Origin: a virus | Length of the DNA: 20,462 nt | Direction: 5' to 3' (one strand) | IMG/VR virus record: IMGVR_UViG_3300038701_000348 | Location: 1 to 20,462 of that record | Part shown: positions 858-18,369 of the stretch, piece after piece | Numbering within the stretch: position 1 is the stretch's first letter | Layout: every line of letters begins with the position of its first letter | The notes under the pieces: generated by a model | What the model was told of the DNA's origin: nothing | Seen by the model: only the letters and a program-made list of their open reading frames with translations | Database searches by the model: none | Position numbers and translations under genes: made by a program

Positions 858-1359
858 TCTCGCTAATAATAATATTGTTTTTGATGAAGCTCTTTTGTTA
901 ATACCAGAGTTTGAAGCTCTTTGGGAAAAAGACACTTCTAAAACTAAAGAATTGGCTTTTAAGCAATTTGCTTATATCTATTTTATTTATGATTCAGCAA
1001 GTCCATATAGTAATTTTCCTGAGCATAAAAGAATAGAGCTTGTTTCTAAAGACATGTTAAAAGGAGAAGTTTCTAATACTGAAGAACTAAAAAAGGCTAT
1101 TCAAAAGTTTTTAGAAATGTCTCAAACACCAACACAGAGGTTACTTGCAAGTGTTAAAAGTAAAATAGATGATGTGGCTACTTATTTAACAGATACAGAG
1201 ATAGATAATAAGTCTTTGCCTCCTATTTTAAAAACTATAGAAAGTACTTCTAAACTGGTTTCTCAATTGGCTACTTTAGAAGATGCTGTAAATAAGGAAA
1301 AAGCTTCTAACTCTACAAGACGTAGCGGAGAGAAAAGAACTAGGAAGTATGAAGATTAG
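844..1359 (+). CDS. candidate small terminase subunit / conserved phage protein upstream of TerL
   Basis: This protein of 171 residues is mostly helical. The N-terminal part contains IPEFEALWEKDTSKTKELA followed by an aromatic helix (FAYIYFIYDSASPYSNF), a pattern I recognise from proteins immediately upstream of TerL in Bacteroidota phages. The C-terminal half is a long helix or coiled coil, and the tail is strongly basic (STRRSGEKRTRKYED), suited to DNA contact. I chose ATG 844 (MKIFNLANNN) because it follows an A-rich leader and leaves only a 14-base overlap with the previous gene; an in-frame TTG at 811 would give a longer overlap. The stop overlaps the TerL start by 11 bases. Its position suggests the small terminase subunit that recognises phage DNA, but no diagnostic motif proves it. 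Confidence 0.72.
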   Translation: MKIFNLANNNIVFDEALLLIPEFEALWEKDTSKTKELAFKQFAYIYFIYDSASPYSNFPEHKRIELVSKDMLKGEVSNTEELKKAIQKFLEMSQTPTQRLLASVKSKIDDVATYLTDTEIDNKSLPPILKTIESTSKLVSQLATLEDAVNKEKASNSTRRSGEKRTRKYED

Positions 1360-4300
1360 TGTTTCACCTAAATATTTTCAAGAAGCTGCTCATTACTTCA
1401 CAGAGCATGGTACTTATACCAAGTATCCTTTTGGTACGTATCAGTTTGATGAGTTTTGGGAAGAAGAAACTAGAAGATGTAAAGAGGGAGTTACACATGG
1501 AAACCTATATATTCCAGGGTCTTATTACTTCTATCTTAATTATACTCAAATTGAATTAAAAAATCCTAGTACTGGTAGAAAAAGTAGTGGGTTTCCTTTA
1601 TTTACTGATGTAGACTTAGAGTACTTTACTTTTGTAGAAAAGGCTAGAAAAGAACAAAAAGGTATTGCTTTAGTAAAACCTAGACGTATTGGATTTTCAT
1701 ATAAGTCTGCTGCTATTATAGCGCATGAGTTTAGTTTTTATAGAAATGCTAAATGTATTATAGGAGCTTTTCAATCCCAGTTATCTGAAAATACAATGAG
1801 GATGTCTTTAGACGACCTTAATTTTTTAGATTTACATACAGAATGGGGAAAAGAAAGAAATCCTAATACTAAGGATTTTGTAAAAGCAAGATACAAAAAA
1901 ACAATAGATGGGGTAACAGCTTGGGCAGGATATAACTCTGAAATACATTCTTTTACTTTTAAAGATAACCCATTTGCTGCTATTGGTAAATCTAGTAACC
2001 TTTTCTTATTTGAAGAAGCTGGTAAATGGCCAGGATTATTGCAGTCTTATAATATTTCTGAACCCTGCTGGAAAGATGGTGATGACCTTATTGGTGTACC
2101 TATTGTACAAGGCTGTGTTTGTGCTGGGACTAAAGTTTGGACTTCTACAGGAGATTTAAAGAATATAGAAGACTTAAAAAGAGAAGATGGGATAATGGGT
2201 TTAAATAACCAAAAAGCTTCTCCTGAAGAAATTACCCATTTTAATCCTCCTAATAAGAAACCTTGTTATAGAATAACTACACATACTAATAGTGTTTTAG
2301 AATGTAGCGATGACCATCCTATTTTATGGTCAAAAAATAGACATTCTTATATTCAAAGAGAAACTATAAAAGGCAAAAGAGAGGTTATAAATAGATACAA
2401 AAAGGTTGAGTTCAAAGAAACAAAAGGTATTAAAAAAGGAGACCATATAGCTATTATTAATGCTGTAAGCACATTTAATAATGAAGCTATATGGCAGCCT
2501 AGATTAGTAGGTATGTTAATAGGTGATGGTTCCTACGGTTTTGATAAAACTCCTGTACTTTCTAATTGTGATAAAGAAATTTTAGATTACACAGAATCTA
2601 ATTTTGATACTGTTGTTGAAAAATCTCATTTAACTAAAAATAATAAAGTATATAAAGAGTTAAGAATTAAAGGTATATGTAAAGAGCTTAGAGTCTTAGG
2701 AATCTATGGTCAAACTAAAAAAGCCAAAAGGCTTCCTAAACAAATATTTAAAGCTTCTAAAAAAGATGTTTGTGAGCTTTTAGCAGGAATTATAGATACA
2801 GATGGATGTGTTAGAATTACTAAAAGTAAAACTGTTACAGTAACTATTTCATCTGTCTCTAAAGAGTTAATAGAAGAAATTAAATACTTATTCATTAAAT
2901 TAGGAGTGCATGGCTCTATTCAAAAAGTAAACCCTTCTAGAGCTAAAAAAAGAATTAAAGATGTAAATCCTTACTATAATCTACACATCTCTGATATAAC
3001 TAGCGTTTTTAACATAGCTAAAAACATTAATCTATTAGTCAGCTATAAGAAAAAAAGGTTAAATACTATTTTTAACAGGAAGGAAATTGAAGGAGACTTT
3101 ACTAAAAAAGTTTTTGTTAAGAGGTCAGACAAAGATAAAAGGTATCTTGAATTAACTGATGTAGAAGGTATTAAATTTGAAATAGTAAAATCTATAGAGT
3201 ATATAGGGGAAAAAGACATATATAACCTTACCGCAGGTACTACACATACTTATATTGCTAACAATATAGTTACTCATAATACTGGAGGTGATATGGAAGG
3301 TGGTACACAGGAGTTTGCAGAAATGTTTTTTAATCCTGATAAATACAACTTCCTAGCTTTTGATAATATATGGGATGAAGATTCTAAAGGAACTCAATGT
3401 GGGTTTTTCATTCCAGCTACTAGAATGAGGTTTGGTACTTATAAAGATATAAATAAAGAACATCCAGAATGGAAGGGTAAACCAATGATAGATGATTTTG
3501 GTAATTCTTTAGAAGATATAGCCAGACAGTCTATTTTTGATTTAAGAAAAAGAGCAGAACAAGGAGCAGACCAACAAGCTAAGATTGACTCTGTAACTCA
3601 GTATCCATTATCTCCTAAAGAAGCTTTCTTACAAAGCCATTCATTCTTTTTTCCTATTACTGAGCTAAAGCTTGTACTCTCTAAAATGGATGACTCTATA
3701 GAGTTAGACAAGCATAGCGTAGGGCATCTTAATTTTGAAGAAGGTTCTCTAAAGTGGGTAGATGTTCAAAGTGGTTCTCCTTATAGAGATTATCCTGTAC
3801 AAAAAGCAGAAGAAGGTTTAATAGAGATATATGAAACTCCTAGACTGGGAGATGCTGGAGAAATTAATGTAGGTAGATATATTGCAGGTATTGACCCTTA
3901 CAGGTATGATTCTGCTACTTCTGAATCTATAGGTTCAATATTTGTATTTGATAGATTAACCAGAAGAATTGTAGCTGAATACTCAGGAAGACCTGAAAGT
4001 ACAGAAAGATTTTACGAAATATGTAGAAAGCTTATAATTTATTATGAAGCTACAGCTATGTATGAAGCTAACATTACAGGTTTATACTCTCATTTTGAGA
4101 AGAAAAAAGCTTTACATTTGTTAGCTGACACTCCTTATAACTTAAGAGATAGAAATACTTGGAAACCTAATACAAATAGTTCTAAAGGTATTATTATGTC
4201 TAAAGCTGTTAAAGAAAGGGGATTAGAGTATTTAAAAACATGGTTAACAGAAACTATATCTGAAGAATCTGAAGAATTGATGCTAAGTACTATTAGGTCA

Positions 4301-4540
4301 GTAGGTTTATTAAAAGAGCTAATTGCATGGAATCCTAATCCTAGAGCTAACTTTGATAGAGTATCTGCTATGTTAATGGTAGCTTGGTATGATGTAACTT
4401 TACAAGAGTTTAATCGTTTATCAATCCATGAATCTCCGCTAAAAAAGAAAACTGGTTCTTATTTTGATAAGTTTAAACAAAAAAGAGATAATCAAGATAT
4501 TTGGATGAAGCATTTCACTCCTCAAACTGAAATAGAATAA
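1349..4540 (+). CDS. terL: terminase large subunit interrupted by an intein
   Basis: This is the ATP-driven packaging motor and headful nuclease of the phage. It is 1063 residues as encoded and 674 after removal of the intein, a normal size for TerL. The ATPase half has a Walker A-like loop at residues 110-120 (KPRRIGFSYKS) and a Walker B-like strand at 218-225 (LFLFEEAG, with E222/E223; the usual aspartate is replaced by Phe-Glu-Glu). The intein sits at 256-644. Removing it joins VPIVQG to TGGDMEGG, restoring a GTGG-type coupling motif. The C-terminal RNase H-like nuclease half contains GRYIAGIDPYRYDS (D849) and NFDRVSAML (D1003), consistent with metal-binding acidic residues. It acts at the portal, whose gene follows after one base. 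The start overlaps the upstream gene in a tightly coupled packaging operon. Confidence 0.95.
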   Translation: MKISVSPKYFQEAAHYFTEHGTYTKYPFGTYQFDEFWEEETRRCKEGVTHGNLYIPGSYYFYLNYTQIELKNPSTGRKSSGFPLFTDVDLEYFTFVEKARKEQKGIALVKPRRIGFSYKSAAIIAHEFSFYRNAKCIIGAFQSQLSENTMRMSLDDLNFLDLHTEWGKERNPNTKDFVKARYKKTIDGVTAWAGYNSEIHSFTFKDNPFAAIGKSSNLFLFEEAGKWPGLLQSYNISEPCWKDGDDLIGVPIVQGCVCAGTKVWTSTGDLKNIEDLKREDGIMGLNNQKASPEEITHFNPPNKKPCYRITTHTNSVLECSDDHPILWSKNRHSYIQRETIKGKREVINRYKKVEFKETKGIKKGDHIAIINAVSTFNNEAIWQPRLVGMLIGDGSYGFDKTPVLSNCDKEILDYTESNFDTVVEKSHLTKNNKVYKELRIKGICKELRVLGIYGQTKKAKRLPKQIFKASKKDVCELLAGIIDTDGCVRITKSKTVTVTISSVSKELIEEIKYLFIKLGVHGSIQKVNPSRAKKRIKDVNPYYNLHISDITSVFNIAKNINLLVSYKKKRLNTIFNRKEIEGDFTKKVFVKRSDKDKRYLELTDVEGIKFEIVKSIEYIGEKDIYNLTAGTTHTYIANNIVTHNTGGDMEGGTQEFAEMFFNPDKYNFLAFDNIWDEDSKGTQCGFFIPATRMRFGTYKDINKEHPEWKGKPMIDDFGNSLEDIARQSIFDLRKRAEQGADQQAKIDSVTQYPLSPKEAFLQSHSFFFPITELKLVLSKMDDSIELDKHSVGHLNFEEGSLKWVDVQSGSPYRDYPVQKAEEGLIEIYETPRLGDAGEINVGRYIAGIDPYRYDSATSESIGSIFVFDRLTRRIVAEYSGRPESTERFYEICRKLIIYYEATAMYEANITGLYSHFEKKKALHLLADTPYNLRDRNTWKPNTNSSKGIIMSKAVKERGLEYLKTWLTETISEESEELMLSTIRSVGLLKELIAWNPNPRANFDRVSAMLMVAWYDVTLQEFNRLSIHESPLKKKTGSYFDKFKQKRDNQDIWMKHFTPQTEIE
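2114..3280 (+). mobile_element. TerL intein with LAGLIDADG homing endonuclease
   Basis: This in-frame insertion of 389 residues within TerL has all the hallmarks of a full-length intein. It starts with Cys1 (CVCAGTKVWTSTGD, block A), has a block B at LECSDDHPILW, and ends with TTHTYIANNIVTHN, giving the penultimate His and terminal Asn; the first downstream extein residue is Thr. The centre carries two LAGLIDADG helices, LVGMLIGDG (acidic residue D393 of the precursor) and LLAGIIDTDG (D485). Both catalytic acids are kept, so the endonuclease looks active. Splicing would leave an uninterrupted ATPase. Base composition matches the surrounding TerL, so the insertion is either not recent or came from a compositionally similar genome. 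Confidence 0.95.
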
Positions 4541-4541
4541 T

Positions 4542-7058
4542 ATGTACAATAGAGTATTTGTAGCTCCTAGTCAGATGGTTTCTGATTCTGAGAAAGCTAA
4601 GGCTAAATGGCAGAAAGATAATATAGATGCTTTTGAAGGGCTAGTCCTTTTTGAAAATAGACAAATTAAGAACTCTTATTATAATAAGGTTACTAATTAT
4701 AACCTTAAAAGAGGTATTTTAAATATGAATGATATGGAAAAAGTTGTTGACCCTTATGGTTTAGGGTTAGGAACTTTTCCAGGAAGAATGGAACACAAGG
4801 GAATAGGTAACTCTAAGATAGACCTATTAGTAGGAGAACATATCAAAAGAAAGTTTGATTTTAGAGTTATTAGAAGTTCTGTAGACCAAGAAGGTATTAG
4901 GGAAGTTGAAGAACTTAAAACTAAGGAGTATATTAATTTCTTCTTAGAGCAAATCCAAAACCCTAACTATGACCCTCAAAAAGCCGAAAGAAGACTAAAA
5001 GAATTAGAAGAATATACAAATTCATCTTTTTTTGATATAGCAGAAAGAGGAGCCAATAAACTTCTTAAGTACCTCTATAAATACTACAATGTAAAAGATA
5101 GAGTATTTGATTCAGCTTTTGAAGATGCTTTAATTGCAGCAGAGCAATACTGTTTTATAGAAGAATTAGGAGGAGAAATTTCTATAAGAAAAGGAGACCC
5201 CACTAGGATTTTTACCATTATGAATGGCCATGCTACTGATGAAAGTGGTTTAGAGGCTTTAGTAGAAGTAACCTATCATACTATTTCATCTTTAGTAGAT
5301 TTATTTCATGATGAATTAACTCCTGCTCAGATAAAAGAACTAGAAGATTATAGAGGATATAATTCAGGACCTCAGCCTTATTTTACTTATCCTATGTATG
5401 GTCATGTAGGAGAGTTAGCTATTCCTACAGATTCTGCTACTGCTAAAGTGCAAGAAGTAATGCCTTTAGGAGATTTAGACCTTCCTATGTTTTCAAGTTA
5501 TTTCGATGCAAGAGGAAACATTAGATTAATGCATTGTATTTGGAGGTCTAAGAGAAAGGTTATTGTTGTTAAAAGTATAGATGAAAATGGTGTAGAAAAC
5601 CTTAGATATGAGCATCAAAAATATAAACCTGATGAATCAATAGGAGAAGAAATTCATAAGATAGAATGGATTAATGAATGGTGGAGAGGTTATAAAATTG
5701 GAGCTAATATCTATCTTAAAGCTCAACCTATACCCTATTTGTCTAATTCCTTAGATAATATTTCAAGACAGCCGCCTCCTGTAGTAATCCAGTTTTATAA
5801 TACTAATTCCTCTAGAGCGCAGTCTTTAATGGATATTATAAAGCCTTATGATTATCTCTATGATATATTTGATTATAAGAGACAGATTTTAGTTAATCTA
5901 ATGCTACCTGATATTGTACAGTTTCCTACTAGTATGATACCAGATAATATGACTTTACATGAGTTTTTAAACTATGTAACTTCTACAGCATTTATGCCTA
6001 TGGACCCTACAGCAGATGTAATGACTCCTAAAGGTATGCAGTCTGCTGGAACATTTAATACTATTACTCCTAACAGATTATCTGCTAATCAAAGTGGGCC
6101 TATACAAGTTCTCAACAATGTGCTAGATAATATAGTGCAGACTATGGATATAGTATCTGGAGTAACTCAGCAAAGGCAAGGAGCTATCAGTTCTACGGAG
6201 TTGGTAGGCAATGTAGAAAGGTCTGTTAGTCAATCTGCTTTAACTACAGAAAGATGGTTTGCTAAAAATGAGTTCTTTAAAGAAAGATGTCTTAGAAGAA
6301 TTTTAGATATAGGTATTAGTATTCTAAGAAAAAATCCTAAGAGGTTAGCTTATTTAATGGATGACTTCTCCAAAGAAGTTATTACAGATGAAGAAATAGC
6401 TGCAACTATACTAGCAGATTTTGACTTACAAGTATCTAGGTCTTCTGAAGATGCAAGATTGCTGCAAATGTTAGAAGCTAATTTCCAAAAAGCTATTGCT
6501 GCTGGTACTGCTGATGCAGCAGACCTTATTAACTTAGTTAAAACTGAAAGTGTTCAGGATGCTGCTAGAACTTTAAAACGTAGAAGAGAGGAAATACAGC
6601 AGCAACAAGAGCAAAGTGAAGAAAGACAGTTAGCTGCTAAAAATCAAGAAGTTCAAGCTAAGACTCAGTTAGAGATGGAAAAATTAGCTATAGAAAAACA
6701 GAAGCTAGAGCTTGAAAAGTATAAGATAGATTCTGAAAATGCTACAAGGCTTCAGATAGCTACCATACAAACATATAGTAGAAAGGAAAACATGGACTTA
6801 GATAACAATGGTATTCCTGACCCTATAGAGTTAGAAAAACTGTATCAAAAAGATAGAGAAATATCTGCTAAAGAATCAGATAAAAAGTTAGAAATTTCTA
6901 CTAAAGCTTCTATAGAAAGAGAAAAAATAAATGTAGAAAAAGAAAAACTTAGAACTGAAGAACGTGTTGAGAAGTTAAAATCTGATACTGCAAAAGCAGT
7001 AGAGAAAATGAAACTTAAAAATCCTGTAGCTGGAGAAAAGAAATCCTCTAAAAAATAG
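4542..7058 (+). CDS. portal protein, crAss-like, with coiled-coil C-terminus
   Basis: This large 838-residue protein should form the dodecameric ring at the unique head vertex through which TerL pumps DNA. Recognition rests on its position directly after TerL and on its N-terminal sequence: FPGRMEH (79-85) and KIDLLVGEHIKRKFDFRV (92-109), followed by a helical region with FEDALIAAEQY, all typical of crAss-like portals. A central segment, with the conserved-looking VSGVTQQRQGAISSTE, fits the stem/wing region. From about residue 680 the chain is a long charged coiled coil rich in Gln, Glu and Lys, and it ends in a basic tail (EKKSSKK). Within this coil, residues 752-763 (DLDNNGIPDPIE) match the 12-residue calcium-binding loop pattern DxDxNGxxDxxE. 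Arginine codons are mostly AGA. Confidence 0.9.
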   Translation: MYNRVFVAPSQMVSDSEKAKAKWQKDNIDAFEGLVLFENRQIKNSYYNKVTNYNLKRGILNMNDMEKVVDPYGLGLGTFPGRMEHKGIGNSKIDLLVGEHIKRKFDFRVIRSSVDQEGIREVEELKTKEYINFFLEQIQNPNYDPQKAERRLKELEEYTNSSFFDIAERGANKLLKYLYKYYNVKDRVFDSAFEDALIAAEQYCFIEELGGEISIRKGDPTRIFTIMNGHATDESGLEALVEVTYHTISSLVDLFHDELTPAQIKELEDYRGYNSGPQPYFTYPMYGHVGELAIPTDSATAKVQEVMPLGDLDLPMFSSYFDARGNIRLMHCIWRSKRKVIVVKSIDENGVENLRYEHQKYKPDESIGEEIHKIEWINEWWRGYKIGANIYLKAQPIPYLSNSLDNISRQPPPVVIQFYNTNSSRAQSLMDIIKPYDYLYDIFDYKRQILVNLMLPDIVQFPTSMIPDNMTLHEFLNYVTSTAFMPMDPTADVMTPKGMQSAGTFNTITPNRLSANQSGPIQVLNNVLDNIVQTMDIVSGVTQQRQGAISSTELVGNVERSVSQSALTTERWFAKNEFFKERCLRRILDIGISILRKNPKRLAYLMDDFSKEVITDEEIAATILADFDLQVSRSSEDARLLQMLEANFQKAIAAGTADAADLINLVKTESVQDAARTLKRRREEIQQQQEQSEERQLAAKNQEVQAKTQLEMEKLAIEKQKLELEKYKIDSENATRLQIATIQTYSRKENMDLDNNGIPDPIELEKLYQKDREISAKESDKKLEISTKASIEREKINVEKEKLRTEERVEKLKSDTAKAVEKMKLKNPVAGEKKSSKK

Positions 7059-7063
7059 TTATA

Positions 7064-7456
7064 ATGGAAGATATTATAAAAGAACTTCAAAATGTAAAAT
7101 TTTCTAAAACTTCTCCAGAGGAGTTTATAGCTAAGCTATTTCAGTCTAGAGACATTACTCACTTAGCTCACTTAGCTACAACTAGCTATGCAGAACATAA
7201 AGCTTTAAATTCCTATTATGATTCTCTTTTAGATTTTATAGATTCATTTGTAGAAGCTTACCAAGGTTTACATGGGCTTATTAAACTCCAAATTCCTGCG
7301 TCTTCTAATCAAAATTCTATAAATCACTTACAAGAGCTTTTAAAATACATAGATGAGAATAAAAAGATTTTTACAGATTCAGCCTTACTAAATCAAGTAG
7401 ATGAAGTAAAAACTTTAATTCAGTCTACATTATACAAACTTAAAAACCTATCATAA
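7064..7456 (+). CDS. small helical protein with Dps/ferritin-type ferroxidase motif (DUF5856-like)
   Basis: This is a 130-residue, all-helical protein. The central segment SRDITHLAHLATTSYAEHKA followed by LNSYYDSLLDFIDSFVEAYQG (residues 28-68) resembles what I recall as DUF5856, found in large phages; the family name is from memory. H33, H45, D60 and E64 are spaced 12, 15 and 4 residues apart, the same spacing as the ferroxidase ligands of Dps proteins (His, His, Asp, Glu). Dps chains are about 150-190 residues, so this would be a compact version. A second helical pair follows at 84-128. It lies five bases after the portal and ends the first operon, before a promoter-like gap. Iron binding, DNA protection, or only a borrowed four-helix fold are all possible; no experiment-based role is known to me. 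Confidence 0.7.
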   Translation: MEDIIKELQNVKFSKTSPEEFIAKLFQSRDITHLAHLATTSYAEHKALNSYYDSLLDFIDSFVEAYQGLHGLIKLQIPASSNQNSINHLQELLKYIDENKKIFTDSALLNQVDEVKTLIQSTLYKLKNLS

Positions 7457-17419: not shown

Positions 17420-17905
17420 ATGAAAATAGAGCAATTCGCAATCCAAAAAACAGATGTAAGCACCATTAGTGAGCTATTCATTGATGGCATGTTTCAATGT
17501 TTTATATTGGAAAACCCCGTGAGGGAGCTTGTGGATAAAAATAAAGATGGCGACTTTGACGATACTGGAGAAGGGAAGATATGGGGCGAAACGGCTATCC
17601 TTCAAGGTGTTTATACTCCTTGGCATAGAAAAGCAGGAAAGCATTACCGCAGGTATGGCCAGAATAAAGAAAAGTACCCTTGGCATTTCGATAAAGGGTG
17701 TATTTGCTTAGACCCGGTGGTGGGGTTTAAATGGATAATGGCTCATCCGGGCAATAAGGCGAAGAACACGCACGGGTGCTTGTTGCCTGGGCAAAGGTAT
17801 AGCACTAATTATGTGGGTAAAAGCCAAGCCGCCTATAAAGACCTGTATTTAAAAACCTTTGATGCAATTGCAGCGAAGGAGGCAAGTTGGGCAATTCAAA
17901 GATAA
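17420..17905 (+). CDS. DUF5675-type lysis protein (probable peptidoglycan-active enzyme)
   Basis: This 161-residue protein matches the layout of DUF5675: an N-terminal strand pair with STISELFIDGMFQCFILENPV, a GETAILQGVY segment near 60, and a C-terminal motif MAHPGNKAKNTHGCLLPG with H109, N112, H118, G119 and C120. The His...His-Gly-Cys arrangement recalls L,D-transpeptidase-type active sites, so a cell-wall enzyme is plausible; the reaction is not proven. Residues 39-51 (DKNKDGDFDDTGE) form a calcium-loop-like insertion between the first strands. No signal peptide is seen, so it would need the holin to reach the wall. Codons are more GC-rich than in most of the phage (GGC, CCG, ACG, CAC), suggesting recent transfer. 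The holin-like gene follows after 11 bases. Confidence 0.72.
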   Translation: MKIEQFAIQKTDVSTISELFIDGMFQCFILENPVRELVDKNKDGDFDDTGEGKIWGETAILQGVYTPWHRKAGKHYRRYGQNKEKYPWHFDKGCICLDPVVGFKWIMAHPGNKAKNTHGCLLPGQRYSTNYVGKSQAAYKDLYLKTFDAIAAKEASWAIQR

Positions 17906-17916
17906 ATATAAATAAA

Positions 17917-18369
17917 ATGGAATCTTTTAACTTAAAAACAACAATTCTATCCTTTTTTTCTATGCTAATAAGTTTTTTTGCTCCTTTAGTACCTTTGATT
18001 ATTATAGTAATATTTGCTACTTTAATTGATACTTATGTAGGAAGATGGCATGCTAAGAAAAAAGGAAAGCTTATTACTAGCAAAAAGACTAGAATAGGAC
18101 TAACTAATAAAATCATAGGCTACTCAATAGCTCTTTTGTTTACTTACATTCTAGATTCTTTAATCCTAAATGAAACAGTAATGCTGTATTTTCCTAAAGA
18201 ACACTTAGTAACATCTTTAGCATGTCTTCTACTTGTTTCTATAGAGTATTCTAGTGTAGATGAAAAAATTAAGTGGGTCACAGGTAAAGGTATTACAGAT
18301 AGAGTTTTTACTTTTATTAGAGGTATAAAGAAAATCTTTACAGAGGTAAAGTCCTTCAAAGAAGATTAG
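17917..18369 (+). CDS. holin-like membrane protein
   Basis: This is a 150-residue membrane protein with about three or four hydrophobic segments: a long one at 9-38 (probably two helices), then 65-84 (IIGYSIALLFTYILD) and 97-110. Between the first and second blocks lies a charged loop, IDTYVGRWHAKKKGKLITSK, typical of Bacteroidota phage holins of the Phage_holin_4 type. It should form the inner-membrane lesion that sets the time of lysis. I chose ATG 17917 (MESFNLKTTILSFF); an in-frame TTG at 17887 would overlap the previous gene and add only a polar stretch. It sits between the DUF5675 gene and the spanin-like pair, as expected in a lysis cassette. Confidence 0.78.
   Translation: MESFNLKTTILSFFSMLISFFAPLVPLIIIVIFATLIDTYVGRWHAKKKGKLITSKKTRIGLTNKIIGYSIALLFTYILDSLILNETVMLYFPKEHLVTSLACLLLVSIEYSSVDEKIKWVTGKGITDRVFTFIRGIKKIFTEVKSFKED

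Follow-up and report, generated by a model that had tools for sequence, protein, structure and literature searches.

The 130-aa protein encoded at positions 7064-7456 of the window, the whole 20,462-base virus record that was analyzed, is very probably derived from Dps. Our best explanation, to which we give a probability of about 60%, is that it represents a shortened, phage-adapted ferritin-like protein of the Dps branch and a putative ferroxidase made late. A mini-ferritin had been proposed in a preliminary description of this DNA. The predicted four-helix bundle, the Dps structural neighbors and the invariant ligands favor that idea, whereas its assignment of H33 as a ligand does not stand and several canonical Dps features are missing. 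Because several of the canonical features tested fail, the protein belongs under DUF5856, as a Dps-related family, rather than under Dps.

Family and locus of the protein

The protein is a member of Pfam family DUF5856 (PF19174; E 1.9e-21, 77.3 bits against a curated cut-off of 34.6) and of phrog_858 (E 1.9e-26), to which T4 RI.-1 (NP_049716) also belongs. A tblastn search with it retrieved 1,365 phage records, for the most part from T4-like and Vi-type phages. The corresponding NCBIfam search gave no match, and Pfam Ferritin (PF00210) did not match the protein at E 1; among the relatives scanned, there was one weak Ferritin match, to a jumbo-phage member (E 0.008, below cut-off). Similar phage proteins had been described as carrying a DUF label without a function, which is correct for Pfam but not elsewhere: PHROGs gives phrog_858 a Dps-type name, “starvation-inducible transcriptional regulator”, and crAss001 gp7 (AXQ62650), which matches DUF5856 at E 3e-5, below the curated cut-off, is annotated as “putative DpsA protein”. 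At the level of labels, the Dps idea is thus not new. None of the papers listed in a literature search mentioned DUF5856, also when the name was paired with “crAss-like”. The Dps-like reading very probably links proteins of T4, Vi-type and crAss phages, some of which are already Dps-labeled in databases.

Gene order in the window (terminase with an intein, portal, the 130-aa gene, a 414-aa protein, crAss major capsid, crAss tail ring), together with the matches of the capsid gene (crAss major capsid protein PF23898, E 1.4e-60 in a Pfam profile search) and of the tail ring gene (crAss tail ring protein PF25710), indicates a fragment of a crAss-like phage. As had been noticed before, the small gene adjoins the portal gene, which is of the crAss type and ends 5 bases 5' of it. 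A search at the DUF5856 gene of the window yielded neither a promoter or terminator above chance level nor a match to an RNA family. The features referred to below are:

4542-7058, plus strand: crAss-type portal gene (phrog_6547 portal, E 1e-91), 5 bases upstream of the DUF5856 gene
7064-7456, plus strand: DUF5856 / phrog_858 gene for the Dps-like protein, 130 aa, ATG start (ORF, PF19174, phrog_858)
7115-7174, plus strand: predicted helix A, residues 18-37 (AlphaFold2, pLDDT about 98), with H33 and H36 near its C-terminal end
7160-7162, plus strand: codon of H33, an extra invariant His that equals Dps position 48
7169-7171, plus strand: codon of H36, counterpart of E. coli Dps H51 (profile alignment, loop-length variants)
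7187-7273, plus strand: predicted helix B, residues 42-70 (AlphaFold2), one continuous helix with H45, D60 and E64
7196-7198, plus strand: codon of H45, counterpart of Dps H63
7241-7243, plus strand: codon of D60, counterpart of Dps D78
7253-7255, plus strand: codon of E64, counterpart of Dps E82
7316-7450, plus strand: predicted helices C (85-102) and D (106-129), which make up a half of the protein that is longer in Dps; D113, Y124 and L126 hardly vary

Elsewhere in the window, the ORF of the terminase large subunit (1349-4540) contains an intein of ~387 residues, near C258 to N644 of the ORF, which carries a LAGLIDADG homing endonuclease (PF14528, E 2e-11; PF14890, E 9e-11). Positions 615-857, 5' of the terminase gene, encode a small protein weakly similar to HU-type DNA-binding proteins (phrog_379, E 4e-4), and crAss001 offers a parallel in gp14, “protein HU”, also upstream of the terminase gene. 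A DUF5675 protein followed by a holin-like protein (PF05105) at 17420-18369 forms a likely lysis module.

Conserved residues and predicted fold

The preliminary description was built on H33, H45, D60 and E64 at intervals of 12, 15 and 4, read as exact Dps spacing, and on an EAYQG ending. The four residues at these intervals, and EAYQG after E64, are indeed present in the 7064-7456 ORF. The pattern H-x11-H-x14-D-x3-E appeared in 109 of 200,000 shuffles of the protein (p about 5e-4) and in none of the other reading frames of the window. Conservation is stronger evidence for this motif than the shuffle statistics. H33, H36, H45, L48, Y52, D60, E64, G68, Y124 and L126 were fully invariant in 63 non-redundant homologues, and H33, H36, H45, D60 and E64 were identical in 109/109 homologous ORFs; the four residues first singled out are therefore kept throughout close and middle-distance homologues. 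In the widest scans for homologues, the search pattern held residues 39-47 constant, H45 among them, and the conservation of H45 is thus partly selected, whereas H33, H36, D60 and E64 lie outside the pattern and their conservation is unbiased by it. Among far relatives, H36, H45, D60 and E64 are retained in T4 RI.-1, Vi-type phages, a jumbo phage, crAss001 gp7 and E. coli Dps itself, and Det7 gp75 keeps the ligand residues too.

However, the residue assigned to Dps H51, H33, is one helical turn off. Profile alignment pairs H36 with H51, H45 with H63, D60 with D78 and E64 with E82, leaving a three-residue gap in the A-B loop. Trp follows H36 in members L105, L109 and L110, as it follows H51 in Dps; ctEw122, with a longer loop, has 12 residues from H36 to H45 and 15 from H33 to H45; and crAss001 gp7 reads “NLHW” at the H36 position, with Lys at H33. 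H33 as the counterpart of Dps H51 is ruled out by the profile alignment, the HW-bearing members and the loop-length variants in favor of H36, and the homologous spacing is 9, 15 and 4. The 12-residue match between H33 and H45 is a coincidence, because Dps has three more residues in the A-B loop and H36 is the true counterpart. The Dps position matching H33 is 48, where 13 of the 32 Dps sequences in our profile have His (“HNFHW”). The core ferroxidase ligands His51, His63, Asp78 and Glu82 are all matched, by H36, H45, D60 and E64, aligned and invariant. This correction is of practical importance: mutating H33 alone would probe the wrong residue.

Other canonical features are missing. The position after H36, Trp52 in Dps, is L37 in the window protein, and Leu in 60/63 and Trp in 3/63 homologues. 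The fifth-ligand position (Asp67 of E. coli Dps) is N49, which is not acidic, and homologues carry N, G, Q, A, K, R or, just sometimes, D. No Lys-rich N-terminal DNA-binding tail, as in E. coli Dps, was found; an N-terminal extension is absent in most members, and the window protein has a pI of 5.7. Many Dps also lack such a tail.

The AlphaFold2 monomer model obtained from the 63-sequence alignment (pLDDT 93.2, pTM 0.83) is a four-helix bundle, with helices at residues 18-37, 42-70, 85-102 and 106-129, and its closest solved structures are Dps, as expected for a mini-ferritin. In a fold search of the PDB, the first 50 matches were nearly all Dps, from many bacteria, mostly with probability 1.00 and TM-scores by query of 0.55-0.67, at E-values of 0.016 at best and none below 0.001. 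An 11-member profile searched against PDB sequences had three Dps-type neutrophil-activating proteins on top (E 0.01-0.02) and further Dps below; the single-sequence PDB search with the 130-aa protein returned noise only. When the DUF5856 profile was compared with a profile of 32 Dps (E. coli Dps plus 31 genome sequences), P was 5e-5 (global) and 1.6e-4 (local), in alignments reaching helix D, and the hhalign probability was 40-50%. None of these single comparisons with Dps is conclusive alone. In BFVD, predicted structures similar to the model were found for two uncharacterized proteins of giant viruses, A0A481ZC29 of Pithovirus LCPAC404 (rmsd 1.4, TM 0.78/0.87) and, more weakly, A0A7D3V608 of Fadolivirus.

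Proposed chemistry, genomic setting and alternatives

H45 and D60 are 15 residues apart on a straight helix of the monomer model, ~22 Å at 1.5 Å per residue, too far along one continuous helix for a single chain to bind one metal with both. In Dps, two subunits supply the ligands of the ferroxidase site, which come together at a two-fold axis. To judge from the model, the joint invariance of H45 and D60 would be best explained by such an inter-subunit site. Two subunits would pair head to tail, with H36/H45 of one facing D60/E64 of the other, and the paired site would bind iron. It would oxidize Fe(II), probably using hydrogen peroxide or oxygen, and might in this way limit Fenton damage to phage DNA inside the infected cell. 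On the conserved residues and the predicted fold, a working ferroxidase appears likely, although its chemistry may differ from that of canonical Dps because homologues do not conserve the fifth ligand (N49 here). The protein would be a late product, made with the portal, since its gene closely follows the portal gene (5 bases here; a 4-base overlap in many podoviruses). This argument fails for the T4 copy, because rI.-1 adjoins rI and tk.

The genomic setting varies among phages. The gene lies directly 3' of a crAss portal in 4/66 and of a phrog_156 portal in 17/66 non-redundant loci, and in podovirus loci it usually overlaps the portal gene by 4 bases. It adjoins rI in T4-like phages (the T4 copy is next to rI and tk), is directly followed by a holin gene in P19250A, has an endolysin gene upstream in 6/30 loci scanned, and in crAss001 (gp7) lies among tRNA genes. 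In eight records of cultured or gut crAss phages, no DUF5856 gene is annotated beside the portal; in four of these eight, a distant copy is present at another place. No copy was detected in the cultured crAss phage phi14:2, whose portal, structural protein and capsid genes stand in a row; in the crAss lineage of the window, the DUF5856 gene thus looks like an additional gene placed after the portal gene and before the following structural gene. This setting is more readily that of a mobile accessory gene than of an indispensable portal part. The preliminary description suggested a role in head filling and a scaffold origin, neither of which found support here. The gene has the portal as its neighbor in some phages and rI, holin, endolysin or tRNA genes in others. 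As separate observations, the gene of podovirus ctEw122 (L134:2923-3345) directly follows that of an annotated head-to-tail connecting protein, a possible third portal type; the upstream neighbor of distant members L014-L017 is very large (about 1,620 aa); and virion structural families are among the phrogs of the scanned neighbors.

It is conceivable, but unlikely, that the Dps-derived fold holds a structural metal in a dimer, zinc or a different one, and serves as a regulator or partner, e.g., in lysis timing, and not as an iron oxidase. Such a role would suit the membership of T4 RI.-1 in DUF5856, the lack of conservation of the fifth Dps ligand and the lysis genes that recur nearby (rI in T4-like phages, the holin of P19250A, endolysin in 6/30 loci). 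In the passages of PMC6832632 that summarize Golec et al. (2010), over-expressed rI.-1 delays the collapse of lysis inhibition, but the effects given there are slight. In addition, RaK2 has a homologue but lacks rI, t, rI.1 and rIII (PMC3622015), making a fixed link to the RI system unlikely, and what is conserved are the Dps ferroxidase residues with one His added. Convergence is very improbable. It would make the protein a four-helix bundle that resembles Dps without being related to it, with invariant residues that serve folding or some other site. Four-helix bundles are common and the single scores are weak (PDB fold E 0.016 at best; hhalign 40-50%), but the top fold matches are almost all Dps and not mixed bundles, independent sequence profiles concur with the four ligands in register, and bridging sequences exist, such as crAss001 gp7 (“NLHW...H...D...E”) and the jumbo-phage member with the weak Ferritin match.

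We also consider it rather improbable that the protein is a virion component or packaging accessory, present in a few copies at the portal or in the head, where it would neutralize iron or peroxide or keep hold of the DNA while the head is filled and the DNA delivered. The portal gene is directly upstream in 4 crAss-type and 17 podovirus non-redundant loci with different portal families, the ctEw122 copy adjoins the connecting protein gene, and some Vi-type relatives are labeled structural. The Vi01 copy is called “conserved phage associated protein”, a label alone, in a phage with 41 reported particle-associated proteins (PMC3184105). On the other hand, phi14:2 has no detectable copy, the gene is away from the portal in T4-like, Vi-type and crAss001 genomes, and the passages of the crAss001 virion literature consulted do not name gp7; within those passages and their Vi-type counterparts, no clear answer on the presence of DUF5856 proteins in virions was found. 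A bolder proposal, to which we attach little confidence, is that DUF5856 might constitute a virus-specific class of mini-ferritins, a cage-less minimal Dps dimer with three His, Asp and Glu, cotranslated with the portal and located at the packaging vertex or in the particle, common to T4-like, Vi-type, crAss-like and many podoviral phages and possibly to giant viruses.

If the preferred reading of a Dps-branch ferroxidase is true, a very common unexplained accessory protein of large phages (more than 1,300 records, including T4 RI.-1) would gain a concrete, testable chemistry, and many lytic phages might manage iron or peroxide during infection. It also provides exact residues for mutation in a model phage, as T4 rI.-1 shares the His, His, Asp and Glu.

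Comparison with known systems

With Dps and mini-ferritins, such as E. coli Dps and the H. pylori neutrophil-activating protein, the window protein has in common the predicted fold and the four core ferroxidase ligands in register, and an “HxxH” closes its helix A as in many Dps. It differs from Dps by an A-B loop 3 residues shorter, Leu for Trp52, a fifth ligand that is not conserved, the lack of a basic tail and a shorter C-terminal half, because of which Dps cage contacts may be missing in DUF5856. Within DUF5856 / phrog_858, including T4 RI.-1, it is the same in invariant residues and size, but T4 rI.-1 lies by rI, whereas the window gene is directly 3' of a crAss-type portal gene. The relatives crAss001 gp7, cr106_1, cr108_1 and DAC15 have the H36, H45, D60 and E64 positions in common with it, with a weaker DUF5856 match. 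In contrast to the window protein, the crAss001 gp7 group has Lys at H33 and Asp at position 49, as in E. coli Dps, and its genes lie among tRNA genes or elsewhere, away from the portal. Dps-type enzymes of gut phages, e.g., the proposed Gratiaviridae, have been proposed to protect from oxidative damage (PMC8008677); they are likewise phage-borne and Dps-type, and are likened to the window protein here by description alone.
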